Part shown: piece after piece, positions 8,527 to 25,027 of the stretch
How positions within the stretch are numbered: position 1 is the first letter of the stretch
Layout: every line of letters begins with the position of its first letter
Source of the DNA: a virus
Reading direction: 5' to 3' (one strand)
Length of the DNA: 25,027 nt
Virus record (IMG/VR): IMGVR_UViG_3300042505_001542
Span: 1-25,027 of that record
Translations under genes and position numbers: made by a program
The notes under the pieces: model-generated
Database searches by the model: none
What the model was told of the DNA's origin: nothing
The model's input: only the letters and a program-made list of their open reading frames with translations

Positions 8527-9002
8527 GCAGCTTCTTTCTGTTGTGTCTGTTGGTTGGTTCGGATATGCTCCAGCGCATTGGCATGTGCGCAGCCATATAT
8601 CAGCGCCATGCAAACGGCCTGCATGGTTGTAAGGTCTGGAAAGTAGCTGCGCCACTGTTGGGCATGGCCGCATATTATTATTTCATCGGTGCTCATATTG
8701 TCCAGTTCTTCATCGGTGTAGTTCAGTGGGTCTTTGGCTATGCAATTGCTTCGGAAACCCTGGTAAAGACCGGTGTACCAATCGGCCAGCTTGGTAGCTT
8801 CGCGCAGCAGTTGGTAGAAGGTATCAATGGCCTCGTTGCGTTGACTTATTCGCTCCTCCAGTTGCTCTTGCAGAATTATGGCCATGGCCGGTTGCTCTTT
8901 GCATTTTTGCTCGGTGGCCTGTTCATCCCACCGGTTCTGCTTTTCCACTTTGAATTTCATGGCCTTAATGGTTTCCGCGGCCTTGCGCTGTGTTGCTGTC
9001 AT
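8523..9002 (-). CDS. Unknown helical protein of the replication block
   Basis: The protein has 159 residues and is predominantly alpha-helical. It has a charged coiled-coil-like first half (KVEKQNRWDEQATEQKC, LQEQLEERISQRNEAI), a central YTDEELDNMSTDEII segment and a cysteine/histidine-rich end (AVCMALIYGCAHANALEH). No catalytic motif is seen. It is coupled to the helicase by an ATGA overlap, so a helicase loader or accessory factor is possible. No family recognised. Confidence 0.55.
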   Translation of the reverse strand: MTATQRKAAETIKAMKFKVEKQNRWDEQATEQKCKEQPAMAIILQEQLEERISQRNEAIDTFYQLLREATKLADWYTGLYQGFRSNCIAKDPLNYTDEELDNMSTDEIIICGHAQQWRSYFPDLTTMQAVCMALIYGCAHANALEHIRTNQQTQQKEAA

Positions 9003-9301
9003 ATCGTCAGCACCTTTTGCACTGGTTCAAACTCATCTTTGATGTTGCTGCACCTTTGCGCCATGTGTTTATTATACCGAAGTCTAAAAAGCGCGCACCA
9101 CGTTCCGCAGGTTACTCTTCGCGGTTGGTTGTCAGAAATTGGGCTTGGCTGCTGGCCGCCTATTGTTAGGCGGGTGTCAGGGTAAAGCACTTGCGTTACG
9201 CTTCCACCGGCAGCAAATGGGCAGGCCAGCGGTTGGCCGTCCTCGTTATGCAAGTAGTAATTAGGGTCTTCCTGGTTAAATCGTTTCAGTTTTAGGCTCA
9301 T
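8999..9301 (-). CDS. Unknown 100-residue protein with cysteines
   Basis: The start was placed at the ATG at 9301 (MSLKLKRFNQEDPNYYLHNE), which overlaps the TGA of the upstream gene. Cysteines occur at LACPF, CGTWC and QRCSN, possibly a zinc site. It has beta-like character with basic loops. Coupled on both sides. Function unknown. Confidence 0.5.
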   Translation of the reverse strand: MSLKLKRFNQEDPNYYLHNEDGQPLACPFAAGGSVTQVLYPDTRLTIGGQQPSPISDNQPRRVTCGTWCALFRLRYNKHMAQRCSNIKDEFEPVQKVLTI

Positions 9302-9528
9302 AGTGATTTCATTAGGTTGGTTTCTATTTTGGCTCTTTGGCGCAGAACATTTGCGGTAATGGTGTCGGGTTGAATTACTGCCCACGTAAAATGCAGCCTA
9401 CTGAGCACTGGCTGCTGATACTTGCCGCAGCAGTAGCATATACGGTAAACGGGCAGCTCCATGGCATCAAACTCCGTGAACCAATCGTGGCCCACCAGCA
9501 GGCATTTAGCTTTTTGTAAATAGGCCAT
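9298..9528 (-). CDS. DUF1660-like small zinc-finger protein
   Basis: The protein has 76 residues. KCLLVGHDWF followed by YRICYCCGKYQ gives C-x4-H ... C-x2-C, the pattern of small prophage proteins of the DUF1660 kind, which look like single zinc knuckles. The C-terminal part is basic. It probably binds nucleic acid or a protein early in infection. It overlaps its neighbours on both sides. Confidence 0.55.
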   Translation of the reverse strand: MAYLQKAKCLLVGHDWFTEFDAMELPVYRICYCCGKYQQPVLSRLHFTWAVIQPDTITANVLRQRAKIETNLMKSL

Positions 9529-10068: not shown

Positions 10069-10100
10069 CAAACATAAGTATATAAATTGCATATATGCAA
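10069..10100 (-). promoter_or_regulatory. Leftward early promoter with perfect TAnnTTTG box
   Basis: On the minus strand TATGTTTG (10069-10076) matches the Bacteroidota -7 consensus exactly. TTG (10098-10100) lies 21 bases upstream, slightly longer than usual. The -33 box is inside the palindrome 10087-10100, so the bound repressor would shut off the Cro-helicase operon. Confidence 0.6.
10087..10100. promoter_or_regulatory. Perfect 14-bp palindromic operator
   Basis: TTGCATATATGCAA is fully self-complementary and is the best member of the TTGCA-N4-TGCA set. It sits between the divergent Cro-like and repressor genes, over the leftward -33 box and near a weak rightward TATAAATTG box, so the repressor would control both directions including itself. 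Confidence 0.7.
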
Positions 10101-10128
10101 GTGGTGTATGCAAAAAAAAACACGAATC

Positions 10129-10698
10129 ATGAAAAATGTGTATGATTATTTCAATCCGGCCATGGTCGAGCTATTTGCCGTTGCCAAGTATGGAAGTATG
10201 GCCAAGTTCTTAGCGGCCACTGGTCGCGAAGCAAGCTGGTGGCACCGGAGCAAAAAAAAGGCAACCATCAAACTTCGCGATGTGGAGCAGTTGGCAGAAT
10301 CGCTAGACTGCCATCCGTGCGATTTTATGGAGGAAGGTCTTTCTGGCAATATGCTAGATCAGGAAAGAGCAGCTTACTCATCTGCAAGCGCGCTTATTTC
10401 AGACCGGATTCAGATTCTCATAACGACCAAGGCAGCAGGCAGTCAGGTTAGGTTTGCCGAGGCTGTCGGAATTGGCGAAAGTCAGGTTAGCAATATCACT
10501 ACCAAAAAACATGCGCCCGGTTTTCAAACGCTATCCAGAATAGTTGGTGCCTATCCAGACATAAACGCCAGGTGGTTGCTCACTGGTCACGGCAGCCCCA
10601 CGGCCTCTGATCGTGAAGATTCTACTTTACGCGATCTTCTGGAGAGTAAGGACGAGATAATAAGACTGCTGAAACTGCAACTTCAATCTAAATCGTAG
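10129..10698 (+). CDS. Tandem-HTH repressor (XRE/CI-like)
   Basis: The protein has 189 residues from the ATG at 10129; an in-frame ATG at 10108 would add seven residues. Two HTH modules are visible. The first (about 10-60) has GSMAKFLAATGREASWWHR then LRDVEQLAESLDCHPCDFM. The second (about 85-150) has QVRFAEAVGIGESQVSNITT and ends in INARWLLTGHG, the ending usual for Bacteroidota prophage repressors. The last 20 residues form a charged helix, probably for oligomerisation. There is no peptidase domain, so no LexA-like self-cleavage. It likely binds the TTGCA-N4-TGCA palindromes. Being one of only two plus-strand genes, it can stay on when the rest is off. Confidence 0.75.
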   Translation: MKNVYDYFNPAMVELFAVAKYGSMAKFLAATGREASWWHRSKKKATIKLRDVEQLAESLDCHPCDFMEEGLSGNMLDQERAAYSSASALISDRIQILITTKAAGSQVRFAEAVGIGESQVSNITTKKHAPGFQTLSRIVGAYPDINARWLLTGHGSPTASDREDSTLRDLLESKDEIIRLLKLQLQSKS

Positions 10699-11827: not shown

Positions 11828-11934
11828 TACTTCATGTTCGGGTGCTTATCCAGATTCTTATCCAGATAGCCATGAACAAAATAGGCGGCAATTGCGCCAA
11901 TCAATGCCGCAAGGGCCAAGTTTTCGATTTTCAT
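11827..11934 (-). CDS. 35-residue membrane peptide
   Basis: ATG at 11934; sequence starts MKIENLALAALIGAIAAYFV and ends in a charged tail (YLDKNLDKHPNMK). One N-terminal membrane helix. The stop overlaps the next start by TAATG. It resembles small holin-like or virion membrane peptides in size only. Confidence 0.5.
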   Translation of the reverse strand: MKIENLALAALIGAIAAYFVHGYLDKNLDKHPNMK

Positions 11935-11938
11935 TGTA

Positions 11939-12070
11939 TTATGGTTTATTGTGAAACGATTGTGTGTGCTCTTTCATAAACTGCTTATCCATCCACCGTG
12001 TCAGAAAATACGAAACAATGGTGCTGATGATCACGGTGATCACTATGAGCTGTATCTGTTGCCTGTTCAT
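11939..12070 (-). CDS. 43-residue membrane peptide
   Basis: ATG at 12070; MNRQQIQLIVITVIISTIVS begins a single membrane helix (about 6-23), followed by a basic, His-containing tail. It lies five bases after the LRAT-like gene and four before the next start. A short helix plus charged tail would suit a holin accessory or minor virion membrane protein. Confidence 0.5.
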   Translation of the reverse strand: MNRQQIQLIVITVIISTIVSYFLTRWMDKQFMKEHTQSFHNKP

Positions 12071-13635: not shown

Positions 13636-16238
13636 TCTGCTGCGTATTTGTATTTCATGGCCATGGCCACTGCCAAGGCGCGTGCTTTTATCTTTTCAAT
13701 AGAATCGGTTGGTGGCTCCACCAGCGGCTTTGCGTAATATCGTTCTTTGGCCACTTTATCCACGGCCAGTGTTATGCTTCCATTGCCAGATAGCAGCAAG
13801 TTGCCCTTGCCACCTTCTATGCGGTATTTATTGCCTTTGGGCATTGGTATTTCCATTACCACCACGCTTTTGGTGTTCCATACCTCAAATGCCTTCTTGT
13901 CAATGTTCCAGTGTACTGTCCAGCCATATTCCTTCACTCCTTCGTGAATCAGTTTGCCAAACGCTTCTGCAGAAATTGGGCTTTCTTGCGTTCCGGGTGC
14001 TTCATTTTTCTGAAATAGCCTTTCAAATGTCTGTTGGGCGTTCAGACCTTCGGTCCATGCTTGTTGCAGTTCAAATTCTTTCGCTTGCAGCATTCCGGTG
14101 GCATCGCTTCTGTCTACGCCAATATCGTTTTGAATACGAAATAGCATTTTCTCGTACCAATTGCCATAGGGTTCAGGCTCTGCCTTTTGCAAAGTGTTAA
14201 CGCTCATAAATCGCTCCTGGTTCCCGTCCTGTACCTTGGCCACGCCTTCTTGGTCCATTTCTATAAACGTGACAGAAGTCATACCATGATCCTTGAACTT
14301 TTTCTCTAGCGTATCGCCTTTCTTCCAGCCCTTTGGTGCTTTGATTGGTGGTTTGCTGTCGGCTCCGGCAAAGGTGTTTGCGCTGGCCTCGTCTTTGAAG
14401 ATAAAACCAGGCACGGCACCGTTGCCACGGAAACTGCTGTAGTATGCTCCTGCTGCTTTGGCCTTGTTTCTAAGCTCGTTAAAATCTTCTGCAGATACGC
14501 GCCCGGTCATGGTAACGGTCCAAATGTCGCTGCCCGTCTTGGTGTGCTTTCCTGCTACTACATTAAATTCAATGTCGGAAGCTGAAACGATTGGCTTAGT
14601 GCTTACCGGCTTTTTATCTGGCTGCGTTACTTTCTTTTGCGCTTTTGGCTGATCAACTATGCCTGCAATCTGCCTTGCGTTTTTCCATGCGCTTTCTACT
14701 CGTTTGCCATAGTATTCTTCAAATTGATCTTGCTTGGTGTAGCCATAAAGTTTCATGGCCAGCCCTTTGTATTCTGCCAAACTCATGGCAGCAGCATCCT
14801 TGTCCAGCTCTATAGAAGATATGGAAGCGGTCAATTTATCTTTGAACGCATACCCTTTTTTCGGGTGCTCTGGTGGAATAAAACGTATGTCATAATCCAT
14901 AGACCACCTGCTGCGTCCGTTTGGCGCTTTGGTAATAATGGCCGAAATGGTTTTTTTACCTAGTTCGTTCCAATCCCTTGTATATTTTACAATGGTCCAT
15001 TTTGGAACCAGCCCAAGTTCTTGTTTGACTTTGGCAGCTTCTTCGCTTCGCTTCTTGGTCTGTGCATCCCACTTCTCGGAGGATTGCTTCCAATCTTCCA
15101 CTTCCTTTTTCCGGTCTGCAAATAGTTTTGCATCCCAATCGTCCGTGTTTATATCAACATGGTCGTAAAAATTGGTATTGAAATAATCAATCTGACCATC
15201 AGAATCACTAAAACGGTACTGCTCCAGAATGTTCTTAGCAATAGCCTCATCTTTCAGGTACTGAGCACTGTATATTGTTTTATAGTGACCATGGTAACGA
15301 TCATGGTTTCTGGCCTTATGATAGCCACCTAGCTCATTGGCCAGATCAATAAACTCTTGTGCATAAGGGTTATGCGGATAATTGGTGCCATTTGCACTTA
15401 TGCTGGCACCGCCAGAAAAAACATCTGTGGTAACGCTCCACTTCATTTCTGGAAACGTGACCTTGTACTCTTCTCTGGCCAGCGCGGCAATGTCCTTGGT
15501 GGCCAGTCCTCGCGTGTTTTTGTACGCGGAACCTTCCCACCTGTAGCCTGTATATCCACGGTCTGGCTCCTTGAATAAATAAGGCTTAGTGGCTTTTAGC
15601 ACCGGTGTTACTGACCTGAAAAACTGGTCGGTCATTTGCTTTACAAATTCATCGCTGGAGTAAGTGCTCCAGTCGGCACCTTCTGCAGTTGCTTTATCGA
15701 CAAAGTTGAAACCGGCCAGAAGGTTGGCATCATTCTGCACGCTGCCCTTTATCTTCAATCGGTGCTCTGTGAAAAATGCCTTATCCACGATAATGCCCGG
15801 TGCTTTCGGTTCGTCCTGCTTGTCGTTGTTCAGCGCATCTTTCCATGCATCGCCTATGTGGCTATCGCCATCGCCCTCACTTTCTGTAAGGCCAAAGGTA
15901 TTGGCACTGAAACCGGAACCGGGTTTAGGTTGGTCGCGTTGCGGCACTTCGCCTGCATCGAGCTTCTGCTCAAATATGGCCACGGCCTTGTAATGTTCGG
16001 CCTTAACGGTGGCCTCAGTTGCGCTGCCTGTTACTTCGCCAAGCTCAATTTTTGGAGCCCTGAACATATTCCATACCAGAGAACCATCTTCGTATTGCCA
16101 AGCAGTTGCGTAGCTGGCAATTTTGCCGCTGCTGCGTTTTAAGGTGGTTATTTTCCATGTATATTCATCCTGGTCGCCCGGAAAACTTGTTTCTCCGGTC
16201 CATCCGTGGCTGCCTTTATATATTTTAGATAAACTCAT
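13632..16238 (-). CDS. Large multidomain polyvalent protein
   Basis: The protein has 868 residues, the largest product here. Modules by eye: 8-95, a WKITTLKRSSGKIASYATA domain common in Bacteroidota mobile-element polyproteins; 247-330, KDIAALAREEYKVTFPEMKW then SVTTDVFSGGASI, matching LPD29; about 395-470, an alpha/beta stretch; about 575-640, YYSSFRGNGAVPGFIFKDEA, another segment frequent in such proteins; about 650-690, a small beta barrel; and a C-terminal tag ALAVAMAMKYKYAAE. No catalytic site is clear. Polyvalent proteins are thought to enter the cell with the genome and counter defences. It is flanked by a 38-bp direct repeat. Confidence 0.7.
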   Translation of the reverse strand: MSLSKIYKGSHGWTGETSFPGDQDEYTWKITTLKRSSGKIASYATAWQYEDGSLVWNMFRAPKIELGEVTGSATEATVKAEHYKAVAIFEQKLDAGEVPQRDQPKPGSGFSANTFGLTESEGDGDSHIGDAWKDALNNDKQDEPKAPGIIVDKAFFTEHRLKIKGSVQNDANLLAGFNFVDKATAEGADWSTYSSDEFVKQMTDQFFRSVTPVLKATKPYLFKEPDRGYTGYRWEGSAYKNTRGLATKDIAALAREEYKVTFPEMKWSVTTDVFSGGASISANGTNYPHNPYAQEFIDLANELGGYHKARNHDRYHGHYKTIYSAQYLKDEAIAKNILEQYRFSDSDGQIDYFNTNFYDHVDINTDDWDAKLFADRKKEVEDWKQSSEKWDAQTKKRSEEAAKVKQELGLVPKWTIVKYTRDWNELGKKTISAIITKAPNGRSRWSMDYDIRFIPPEHPKKGYAFKDKLTASISSIELDKDAAAMSLAEYKGLAMKLYGYTKQDQFEEYYGKRVESAWKNARQIAGIVDQPKAQKKVTQPDKKPVSTKPIVSASDIEFNVVAGKHTKTGSDIWTVTMTGRVSAEDFNELRNKAKAAGAYYSSFRGNGAVPGFIFKDEASANTFAGADSKPPIKAPKGWKKGDTLEKKFKDHGMTSVTFIEMDQEGVAKVQDGNQERFMSVNTLQKAEPEPYGNWYEKMLFRIQNDIGVDRSDATGMLQAKEFELQQAWTEGLNAQQTFERLFQKNEAPGTQESPISAEAFGKLIHEGVKEYGWTVHWNIDKKAFEVWNTKSVVVMEIPMPKGNKYRIEGGKGNLLLSGNGSITLAVDKVAKERYYAKPLVEPPTDSIEKIKARALAVAMAMKYKYAAE
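13638..13675. repeat. 38-bp direct repeat, copy 1
   Basis: Identical to 16238-16275, exactly 2,600 bp away. It encodes the final residues (ALAVAMAMKYKYAA, part) of the 868-residue protein. Copy 2 encodes the same ending of the preceding protein. Confidence 0.9.
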
Positions 16239-16792
16239 GCTGCGTATTTGTATTTCATGGCCATGGCCACTGCCAGAGCTTTGGCGTGTTGGTATGCGTC
16301 AAGGTCAAATGCAGGCGTGTCGCCAATGCATTCGTCTTTGAACTGCTCCAGCTTTTCGTCTATTTCGTGTTCGATCTGTCCTACATCGGTAAGGATCTGC
16401 GCACGGTATTTCACCTTGCCTATTTTCAGGATCTCAATGATCTCTTGGCGTATGCGCTGCTCGTCAAAGTCTGGCGGCAGCAGGTTATCGGCCTCTGGCC
16501 CGTAACGCTCATAGATCTCTTCTGCGGCACGCTCAACGGAAACGCCACGTTTGCTTACCAGGTTTATGTTGATATCGCCACGGGTGCCAACTTTGCCGCC
16601 CGTTTCGCGCTTGGCGCTGGCAGGCGTAATCTTTGGCATGCGCTCCAAAACCACAAGCTCCGGAACGTGATCTTCTGCATAGAGCTGCGCTATCTCCAGC
16701 ATATCTTTTTCGCGCTCCAGTTCGGCCACGTCCAGTTTAAGGCTGTCGCAGTGTTCGTCTTTGGTGCAAGTATGGCAGGTTTCCGTATGCAT
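16235..16792 (-). CDS. Polyvalent-type protein with Cys-rich N-terminus
   Basis: The protein has 185 residues. CHTCTKDEHC at 6-15 may bind zinc. A coiled-coil segment follows (about 18-45), then VSKRGVSVERAAEEIYERYG (about 84-103), like small modules of polyvalent proteins. The acidic helical end carries the tag ALAVAMAMKYKYAA, shared with the 868-residue protein. The ATG at 16792 lies inside an operator-like palindrome and five bases after a TATCTTTG box, so this gene probably starts its own transcript. Confidence 0.6.
   Translation of the reverse strand: MHTETCHTCTKDEHCDSLKLDVAELEREKDMLEIAQLYAEDHVPELVVLERMPKITPASAKRETGGKVGTRGDININLVSKRGVSVERAAEEIYERYGPEADNLLPPDFDEQRIRQEIIEILKIGKVKYRAQILTDVGQIEHEIDEKLEQFKDECIGDTPAFDLDAYQHAKALAVAMAMKYKYAA
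16238..16275. repeat. 38-bp direct repeat, copy 2
   Basis: Identical to 13638-13675. It begins at the first base of the 868-residue gene's start codon and codes for the C-terminus of the 185-residue protein upstream. Confidence 0.9.
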
Positions 16793-19532: not shown

Positions 19533-19601
19533 CTATTTATTTTTGTAGATTAAAAACACAATTGCTGCTATCATGAATACAATGGCTATGATGTAGGCTT
19601 T
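19533..19601 (-). CDS. Membrane-anchor extension of the lysozyme (-1 frame)
   Basis: A -1 slip on the A10 tract would replace the last four residues of the lysozyme by 22 residues, KAYIIAIVFMIAAIVFLIYK plus NK. This is a typical membrane helix with a basic end, just like the tails of the neighbouring proteins, and it is open exactly until the next gene. Without the slip the 50 bases between lysozyme and next gene would be idle. Alternatives: one missing base in the assembly, or transcript slippage. Confidence 0.5.
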   Translation of the reverse strand, partial: KAYIIAIVFMIAAIVFLIYKNK

Positions 19602-20050
19602 TTTTTTTCATCTGTAAAAAATAGCTCTGCTTCGGCCTTCCTTCTATTGGCAAGTCCTTGCACGAATCTTCCACCTGCCCGGTTCCAACGCAGCCACGCT
19701 TCTGTAATGCGCTCCTGAGTGTCATAAGCATTAATGCGTTCTTTCAGCGTGCTATCGCGAAAAGCAGCGCTGCCTATATTGAAGATGAGCGAAACAAGCG
19801 CATCAAACTGGTTCTGGTTCAATGGTGCCAATACCTGCCCACGAATGGCAGCTTCTGCAATACCGGCATCCTTCTTTTTCAGCGCCATTGCATCTACCTT
19901 GGTCAAGGTGGCGCTCATAAGGTGCTGCTCGTTCGGCAATATCAAATGGCCATAGCCAATGGTCCAGTAGCCTGCCACGTCCTTATAGGCTGTGGGGCTG
20001 AACCCTTCCCATTGGGTAATGAACTTAATGCCGTTGTCAGATAGTGTCAT
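19586..20050 (-). CDS. GH24 (T4-type) lysozyme, endolysin
   Basis: The protein has 154 residues. WEGFSPTAYKDVAGYWTIGY gives the catalytic set Glu15, Asp24, Thr30 of T4-type lysozymes, followed by GH. LNQNQFDALVSLIFNIG (about 79-95) and WNRAGGRFVQGLANRR (about 122-137) are the usual C-terminal GH24 blocks. No signal peptide or SAR helix at the N-terminus, so release depends on the holin, unless the virion carries it. The end DEKKKPTS lies on a 10-A tract where a -1 shift adds a membrane helix. Start overlaps the previous stop. Confidence 0.92.
   Translation of the reverse strand: MTLSDNGIKFITQWEGFSPTAYKDVAGYWTIGYGHLILPNEQHLMSATLTKVDAMALKKKDAGIAEAAIRGQVLAPLNQNQFDALVSLIFNIGSAAFRDSTLKERINAYDTQERITEAWLRWNRAGGRFVQGLANRRKAEAELFFTDEKKKPTS
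19599..19608 (-). other. A10 slippery tract at the lysozyme 3' end
   Basis: On the minus strand GAA AAA AAA AAG: the heptamer A-AAA-AAA stands in the zero frame, the canonical form for -1 frameshifting, and the tract is long enough for polymerase slippage. The T10 in the plus strand is also a place where an assembly could lose a base. Confidence 0.6.
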
Positions 20051-20370
20051 GCCAACTTGTAAAGTATTAGAGCCACCACAACCAGAATAATGATCATAGT
20101 GGTCTTTGATTCAGCGGGTAGCGGTAGCTCCACAATGGGTCCTGTTTCAATCTGAATATCGTTCTTATTCAATCTGATAAGACTTTGTGCATTGCCACGC
20201 CCTTGACCTGACTGTGGCTGGGCAATGCGCGGAAAGTAGTTGCTTGGGTATGGGCTTTGTCCACAAGGCCATGAGCCGGATTCTACCCAACCGACCGATG
20301 ATTCGACCAATCTTCGGTGGGTGCATCCGCCCCCTACTGTTGTAATTGTCTGAAATCTAAATCGTGCCAT
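20047..20370 (-). CDS. Tail-anchored 107-residue protein
   Basis: It starts MARFRFQTITTVGGGCTHRR, with a Gly/Pro/Gln-rich middle (YFPRIAQPQSGQGRGNAQSL) and a C-terminal membrane helix (about 90-106, TMIIILVVVALILYKLA). Two cysteines. It overlaps the lysozyme start by four bases. Likely a virion membrane protein; no family recognised. Confidence 0.6.
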   Translation of the reverse strand: MARFRFQTITTVGGGCTHRRLVESSVGWVESGSWPCGQSPYPSNYFPRIAQPQSGQGRGNAQSLIRLNKNDIQIETGPIVELPLPAESKTTMIIILVVVALILYKLA

Positions 20371-20405: not shown

Positions 20406-20483
20406 TCATGGCCTTAATACTTTAATGGTGATAAGCAGAGCCGCAATAATGGCCCACCTTACCATGCAGGTGTTGTCTTTCAT
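20406..20483 (-). CDS. 25-residue membrane peptide
   Basis: MKDNTCMVRWAIIAALLITI, then KVLRP. The ATG overlaps the TGA of the preceding mini-gene (ATGA). One short hydrophobic helix. Its coupling supports translation, but at this size chance cannot be excluded. Confidence 0.35.
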   Translation of the reverse strand: MKDNTCMVRWAIIAALLITIKVLRP

Positions 20484-20581
20484 CTGTCTGAGATAATTGA
20501 TACCAGGACCATAGCGCTCACTATTACAAAGAATAGTGTGAGGCTATCTTCCCACTGTTTTTTTTGGCAATTTTCGCACAT
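20480..20581 (-). CDS. 33-residue CxxC membrane peptide
   Basis: MCENCQKKQWEDSLTLFFVI continues as a membrane helix and ends SDR. CENC at 2-5 could bind metal or form a disulfide. It starts three bases before the stop of the upstream frame at 20584 and is coupled to the next mini-gene. With it, the 210 bases between 20370 and 20584 are almost fully coding. Confidence 0.4.
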   Translation of the reverse strand: MCENCQKKQWEDSLTLFFVIVSAMVLVSIISDR

Positions 20582-20583
20582 GG

Positions 20584-20748
20584 CTATCTATTTAATAGGT
20601 CGGCAATAATGGCTTGGTCAGCATTCGGTTCGTCTGCCAGTGCCATGTATGTGGCTGTGCTATCACGCACCAGCTCATCTACACTATATGCACCGGCAGA
20701 CTGATCCGAAAGTGGTACGCTTACGCTGCTACATCTGCCTCTGCGCTT
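20584..20748 (-). CDS. Acidic C-terminal extension reached by -1 shift on A9
   Basis: After residue 49 of the 20894 gene a -1 slip would continue with KRRGRCSSVSVPLSDQSAGA and on to a stop at 20584, 54 residues in all, acidic and low in rare features (SVDELVRDSTATYMALADEP). The frame has no good start of its own (only a TTG at 20778) and the stretch would otherwise be a 137-base gap in a gapless array. The fused product would have 103 residues. Confidence 0.5.
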   Translation of the reverse strand, partial: KRRGRCSSVSVPLSDQSAGAYSVDELVRDSTATYMALADEPNADQAIIADLLNR

Positions 20749-20894
20749 TTTTTTTCGTAGAGGTCGTAGCCTAGCCAAGCAGCAAGGGCCAAACCAACGT
20801 ACAAAGCATAGGTGTACTTCTTGGCGTAAACCAAGTAGGCACCTACAGCAGCGAGTGCAAACGGAGCCATACTCTTCAATTGGGCAGTTTCCAT
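20721..20894 (-). CDS. 57-residue membrane protein with slippery end
   Basis: METAQLKSMAPFALAAVGAY starts a protein with two hydrophobic stretches (about 10-23 and 28-43, split by KK) and a charged end (YEKKSAEADVAA). The size and Ala-rich helix recall small membrane-embedded coat proteins. The A9 tract at 20747-20755 lies under codons GAA AAA AAA. It could be made in two lengths, 57 and 103 residues. 35 bases separate it from the stop of the upstream gene. Confidence 0.6.
   Translation of the reverse strand: METAQLKSMAPFALAAVGAYLVYAKKYTYALYVGLALAAWLGYDLYEKKSAEADVAA
20747..20755 (-). other. A9 slippery tract
   Basis: GAA AAA AAA AGC on the minus strand contains A-AAA-AAA in the zero frame. 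It is the same context (GAA, run of A, GC) and the same shift direction as at 19599-19608. Confidence 0.6.
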
Positions 20895-24596: not shown

Positions 24597-25027
24597 TTAC
24601 TGCTTTACAGCGGCAGGATTCACGGTGAACTGCGTGATGGTTCCACCAGCGGCACATGTGATGAAAAGCGCATTTCCAGAATCAAGCACAATGCCTTGGC
24701 CAGAGAAGTCCAGCGTAAGCAGCAATGAGTTCTGCTGCGTGTTTCGCTTCGATGCCTGAATGATGTTCTGCAGCGGTCGCTTGCTGAATGTTCCACCCAA
24801 GTTCACTGAACCGTAGTCAATTGCTTGGCTGAACTGTGATGCGGCACCGACTTCGTAGTTAACCTCACCGATTACCATACCTTTACGCAACATGGCGTTA
24901 AGCACGGCATTCGTGAATGGTGTTCCAGAATCGTAGGAAGTGACGCTGTAAGCGCCCAATGCGGCCACGGCACCTTCCGGGTCGCCAATTTTGATGATCT
25001 CAGCAGCACCAGTGGCGGCAGTGTGAG
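24597..25027 (-). CDS. Candidate major capsid/virion protein, C-terminal part
   Basis: This continues the protein that starts at 290. It contributes residues from about 55 onward here (bases 24901-25027 repeat 1-127). GMVIGEVNYEVGAASQFSQA, NSLLLTLDFSGQGIVLDSGN and GGTITQFTVNPAAVKQ are alternating hydrophobic beta-like strands. No TM or catalytic motif. A GTG at 24966-24968 is not the start. The strong terminator 25 bases after the stop supports a separate, abundant message. Confidence 0.6.
   Translation of the reverse strand, partial: HTAATGAAEIIKIGDPEGAVAALGAYSVTSYDSGTPFTNAVLNAMLRKGMVIGEVNYEVGAASQFSQAIDYGSVNLGGTFSKRPLQNIIQASKRNTQQNSLLLTLDFSGQGIVLDSGNALFITCAAGGTITQFTVNPAAVKQ
24901..25027. 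repeat. Terminal direct repeat (circular closure), copy 2
   Basis: Identical to bases 1-127. Remove one copy to obtain the 24,900-bp circle. Confidence 0.93.

Follow-up and report, generated by a model that had tools for sequence, protein, structure and literature searches.

In the stretch of viral DNA considered here (the window, which is the whole record of 25,027 bases), a minus-strand open reading frame of 57 residues and a second frame of 54 residues lying at -1 to it would best be read as one gene, expressed by transcriptional slippage at a run of nine adenines (A9), and the same would apply to a phage lysozyme gene close by, where the run is of ten (A10). The probability of this reading can be put at roughly one half, a figure set by the considerations that the evidence for a genuine short product turns on amino-acid content and that the basic patch encoded at the A9 tract is an ordinary feature; these same considerations leave appreciable, though lesser, weight with the idea that both tracts are simply one base short. 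The features concerned are collected in Table 1.

Table 1. Positions of the two frame-broken genes, their A-tracts and their neighbours (0 frame, frame in which each gene begins).
Feature	Position	Strand	Remarks
57-residue 0-frame ORF	20721..20894	-	Two moderately hydrophobic segments, tail SAEADVAA
A9 tract	20747..20755	-	GAA AAA AAA AGC in 0 frame, 23 nt before 0-frame stop
-1 extension	20584..20748	-	54 residues and a stop; coding-like; head lacks an ATG
33-aa membrane protein, next gene	20480..20581	-	Starts 2 nt past the -1 stop; intact A8 tract
Two tiny ORFs, 25 and 11 aa	20374..20483	-	ATGA overlap, reach down to gene at 20370
Phage lysozyme, PF00959, 154 aa in 0 frame	19586..20050	-	Family match
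A10 tract in lysozyme gene	19599..19608	-	GAA AAA AAA AAG in 0 frame
Lysozyme -1 extension, KAYIIAIVFMIAAIVFLIYKNK	19533..19601	-	Membrane-anchor-like; ends 9 nt before next ATG (19523)

In all likelihood the record represents an entire circular genome, 24,900 bases long, because its first and last 127 bases (positions 1-127 and 24901-25027) are an identical terminal repeat; a 197-aa ORF spans the join. The G+C content is 48.7%, nearly all genes lie on the minus strand, and those that could be recognised encode the lysozyme (PF00959), a holin (PF05105) and a VapE-like helicase (PF05272), the match for an ATPase being weak. Many of the small proteins contain one strongly hydrophobic segment, and many of the C-terminal segments end in K or R. 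Cores resembling a Shine-Dalgarno (SD) sequence lie upstream of just one of 43 starts, which suggests a host among the Bacteroidota, where such a figure would be suitable.

The context of the tract in the 57-residue ORF is TACGAAAAAAAAAGCGC, its nine A's appearing as T9 on the plus strand. From the tract the -1 frame encodes KRRGRCSSVSVPLSDQSAGAYSVDELVRDSTATYMALADEPNADQAIIADLLNR and stops at TAG (20584-20586), and re-reading a single A would join 49 residues to these 54, giving 103. The sequence-only reading, in contrasting a protein of 57 residues with one of 103, was thus correct as to both lengths, and correct also in describing the extension as protein-like and lacking any start of its own; its statement that the shorter protein ends on the tract does not hold, since eight further codons (SAEADVAA) precede the stop TAA at 20721-20723. 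In the lysozyme gene, the end of which reads GAT GAA AAA AAA AAG CCT ACA TCA TAG, codon scores locate the switch of frame at the A10 tract. Tract context, direction of shift and C-terminal position are indeed common to the two genes as had been proposed, each extension needing one extra A. The distance of 0.7 kb given between them is right for the genes themselves (about 0.67 kb), the tracts being about 1.1 kb apart.

How closely tract and frame break go together can be judged from the rest of the genome. Among the 41 genes examined there are exactly two coding-strand tracts of at least nine A's, both of them at orphan extensions, and these coincide with the only two clear start-less coding segments found in a scan of all six frames. 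This one-to-one match means that the tract and the break are linked. All 75 in-gene homopolymers of 5-8 nt lie in intact genes, a control that is partial (the genes having been chosen for their open frames) and is backed by the scan for orphan segments; taken with the match, it means that the cause depends on tract length, be it that RNA polymerase or the ribosome slips there, or that a base has been lost from the tract, in the DNA or during sequencing. The presence of the tracts does not in itself speak for selection, since shuffling of synonymous codons leads one to expect 0.83 tracts of at least nine A's in the genes, with a probability of 0.19 for two or more.

Evidence that the extension is coding comes from a codon model trained on 39 genes of this phage, both of the genes under test having been left out. 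The 44 codons in the -1 frame past the 0-frame stop score +0.379 bits per codon, as against a median of 0.287 for in-frame controls and a maximum of 0.214 for off-frame ones; none of 2016 overlapping off-frame windows matches this score. When synonymous codon choice only is considered, the extension scores 0.10, a weak and not decisive signal lying between the off-frame and in-frame medians (-0.01 and 0.17, the off-frame 95th percentile being 0.21), and the coding signal of the -1 peptide is chiefly an amino-acid composition typical of the phage's own proteins. The arrangement of the genes points the same way: without the extension a gap of 139 nt would remain before the 33-aa gene, so that tiling of the operon is complete only with a coding extension. 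Gaps in this short-spaced run of late genes are of -4 to +52 nt, while elsewhere in the genome they reach several hundred nt.

In the six-frame scan, carried out over sequence outside the accepted genes, the last 32 codons of the extension rank second of the 18 segments listed, after a plus-strand repressor-like gene, and the lysozyme extension is also among those listed. Several of the other segments have an ATG of their own, while the rest, judged by eye, are short, weaker, or represent other frames or strands of genes. Those at 923-1093, 9002-9337 and 11830-11952 (-) are in the former group and are probably small genes, one of them zinc-ribbon-like by eye. The repressor-like gene (10087-10698) has a further A9 tract (10112-10120, +) in the region of its start, and its true start may be at an ATG just 5' or 3' of that tract.

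Whether the short form of the 57-residue protein is a real product is a separate matter, and the sole internal evidence for it is the stretch of seven codons that follows the A9 tract. Here the 0 frame outscores the -1 frame, as would be expected of a genuine short product, and only 4 of 6409 windows are equally extreme. However, this inversion rests on the content of arginine and cysteine, and it disappears when synonymous choice alone is scored (-1 frame +3.71, 0 frame +0.59).

The most serious competitor is the possibility that these are single genes whose standing tracts are one A longer, the assembled or sampled genome being one base short in each, either through replication slippage within the phage population (resembling phase variation) or through contraction during PCR, sequencing or assembly. 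Such a loss would account equally well for the dependence on length, the direction of shift, the intact extensions and the tiling; moreover, the basic patch EKKKRRGR that would result is natural after a hydrophobic segment in a membrane protein and scores well on synonymous codon choice. Set against this, both genes would need to have lost one base simultaneously, and the 0-frame tail after the A9 tract is coding-like, if by amino-acid content only. The terminal repeat of 127 nt, in addition, suggests that the record comes from a short-read k-mer assembly (it is from this repeat that assembler and read type are deduced), and consensus errors at A9 are uncommon in assemblies of that kind. On balance a missing base seems a good deal more credible than any of the explanations that remain, while falling short of the slippage reading. 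The preference of the sequence-only reading for a shared mechanism over two independent errors is tentative.

Programmed -1 ribosomal frameshifting, on A AAA AAA in the 57-residue gene and on A AAA AAG in the lysozyme gene, is improbable, even though both heptamers sit in the 0 frame and A AAA AAG is a classical slippery heptamer of bacteria. The downstream folds are no better than those of shuffled sequences (z 0.80 and 1.60), and an SD stimulator is unlikely in a host where so few starts are preceded by SD-like cores, the test for stimulators having consisted of pseudoknot-free downstream folds and of SD-like cores at gene starts. The lack of any RNA fold beyond that of shuffles is what slippage without a ribosomal signal would be expected to show.

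Harder still to credit is a change of frame near the stop of the 57-residue gene (at about 20724-20733), brought about by the loss of one base outside any homopolymer. The codon score does reach its maximum at codons 55-57 (27.2 bits, compared with 16.7 at the tract), and a switch there gives SAEADVAA followed by SVPLSDQ. Although 10.5 bits ahead, it was dropped as the main reading because the gain lies in amino-acid content and not in codon choice; it would in addition reduce the A9 tract, and with it the similar situation in the lysozyme gene, to coincidence. Least likely of all are a frame open by accident and an independent small gene with an internal GTG as its start, for although the -1 frame is open over the entire 57-residue gene and its GTG would yield an ORF of 28 residues, chance was rejected on the off-frame windows described above, and the 16 codons between the 0-frame stop and the GTG score +0.52 per codon.

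Transcriptional slippage, then, fits the direction of shift, the length of the tracts and the missing signals for ribosomal frameshifting. RNA polymerase would stutter on the A9 tract and add one A in part of the transcripts; the shorter, 57-residue protein would come from unslipped RNA and the 103-residue one, with its soluble C-terminal part, from RNA carrying ten A's, while stuttering at the A10 tract of the lysozyme gene would give a soluble lysozyme together with a form having a C-terminal membrane anchor. The tracts, the open -1 frames, the coding-like content of both extensions, the tiling and the match of long tracts with orphan segments are observed; slippage, its transcriptional nature, the ratio of products and any role in the virion are inferred. 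For slippage to yield two products one looks for an A/T run of about nine or more before a stop, here A9 and A10, and for a coding-like frame opened by the added base, which is what was found, mostly by way of amino-acid composition. In E. coli and Buchnera, insertions during transcription are described as occurring mainly in A/T runs, mostly as single nucleotides, and as increasing exponentially with the length of the run (PMC5574713).

The nearest parallel among the systems compared is tssM1 of Citrobacter rodentium, for which an A11 tract 28 nt before the stop, rescue by added A's and slippage of about 20-25% are reported in PMC4256274. As in that account, a premature stop follows the A-tract within a few codons (after 23 nt in the case of A9), an added A opens a C-terminal part, and ribosomal stimulators are lacking; unlike it, the tracts here are A9 and A10, they belong to late genes of a phage, two genes in one operon are involved, and the case is known from sequence alone. 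There is a likeness also to the endosymbiont genes, cited in PMC5009743, whose DNA frame is broken at poly(A) runs with coding continuity kept, although the genomes in question are AT-rich and reduced whereas the G+C content here is close to one half. The sequence-only reading had looked instead to the minor coat or tail proteins that other phages make by frameshifting. These do resemble the present case in that long and short forms with a common N-terminus would result; however, the examples of tailed phages treated in PMC5009743, such as the coat extension of phage T3 (G-T), are of ribosomal frameshifting, and here no stimulator and no homology to coat or tail proteins was found. With no stimulatory RNA structure found and almost no SD-like starts that analogy is weak, and transcriptional slippage would appear to be the better analogue. 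Among the open-licence papers listed, no description was found of slippage with an endolysin or in membrane-containing phages that matches the case, nor, for phages with an internal membrane, of such a C-terminal membrane segment on a lysozyme.

As regards function, the 57-residue protein is likely to be a membrane protein, judging from its best 17-residue hydropathy mean of 1.54 and from a second hydrophobic segment read by eye, and the predicted long form would carry some 50 further residues as a soluble C-terminal part. Its division into a major short form and a minor long one would be conjectural. The earlier description of it as a coat protein is unsupported: hydrophobicity is only moderate, and there is no convincing family match (the best in PHROG, at E 0.046, is of unknown function). 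For the lysozyme extension the 17-residue hydropathy mean is 3.09, a value that falls among those of the C-terminal segments in the phage's other small proteins. Neither a hydrophobic C-terminal tail nor a run of at least eight A's near the stop occurs in any of the 80 lysozyme loci kept from viral contigs, which implies that the lysozyme of the 0 frame is complete and soluble, and that the anchor is this phage's addition among the lysozymes compared. None of the other window proteins (41 compared) matched those 80 loci.

Searches for relatives, which may leave out near-identical records, gave none in viral_contigs by way of the 57-residue protein, its extension, the ATPase, the coat candidate, the VapE-like helicase or the 868-aa protein, and none in genome_contigs with other proteins as queries; the tract context had no exact counterpart in viral_contigs, and no closely similar DNA turned up in the phages collection. 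That collection did yield distant matches for the lysozyme, for parts of the 868-aa protein and, at less than 60% identity, for the VapE-like helicase, those for the ATPase being at E 0.02 or worse. Salisaeta icosahedral phage 1 (NC_017983) likewise has a circular genome, one rich in small structural genes, and shares one segment of the 868-aa polyvalent protein (E 9.6e-14), as do other phages; its next best match to a window protein (E 0.011) is unconvincing, and overall relatedness is not implied. A membrane-containing tailless phage would be recognised by a packaging ATPase, small membrane proteins and a jelly-roll coat protein, whereas here the ATPase matches are weak, one-segment hydrophobic proteins are many, and the model of the coat candidate (pLDDT 35.6) is of no use. 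The 868-aa protein and a 185-aa protein, encoded by neighbouring genes, share a C-terminal peptide, ALAVAMAMKYKYAA (in one copy then followed by E), through a 38-nt repeat with identical copies at 13638-13675 and 16238-16275 (-); this is possibly a C-terminal tag, and none of the seven Salisaeta phage 1 proteins inspected has it.

If slippage is not the explanation, the case is a caution that tracts of at least nine A's break genes in viral contigs and conceal C-terminal anchors from annotation. If it is, two structural or lytic proteins would be made at a fixed ratio of short to long forms set by tract length alone, with no need of ribosomal signals in a host seemingly lacking Shine-Dalgarno starts; this would be recoding of a known kind, notable for involving two genes in one late operon. 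It is tempting, if rather speculative, to see in the stuttering at A9 and A10 a device of the late operon as a whole, supplying anchored and soluble lysozyme, and a small membrane protein that either has or lacks a soluble C-terminal domain, the proportions being governed by the length of the tracts. The anchored lysozyme may then be a virion or membrane-bound form beside the soluble endolysin, and the pair would be a simple way of serving both entry and lysis.
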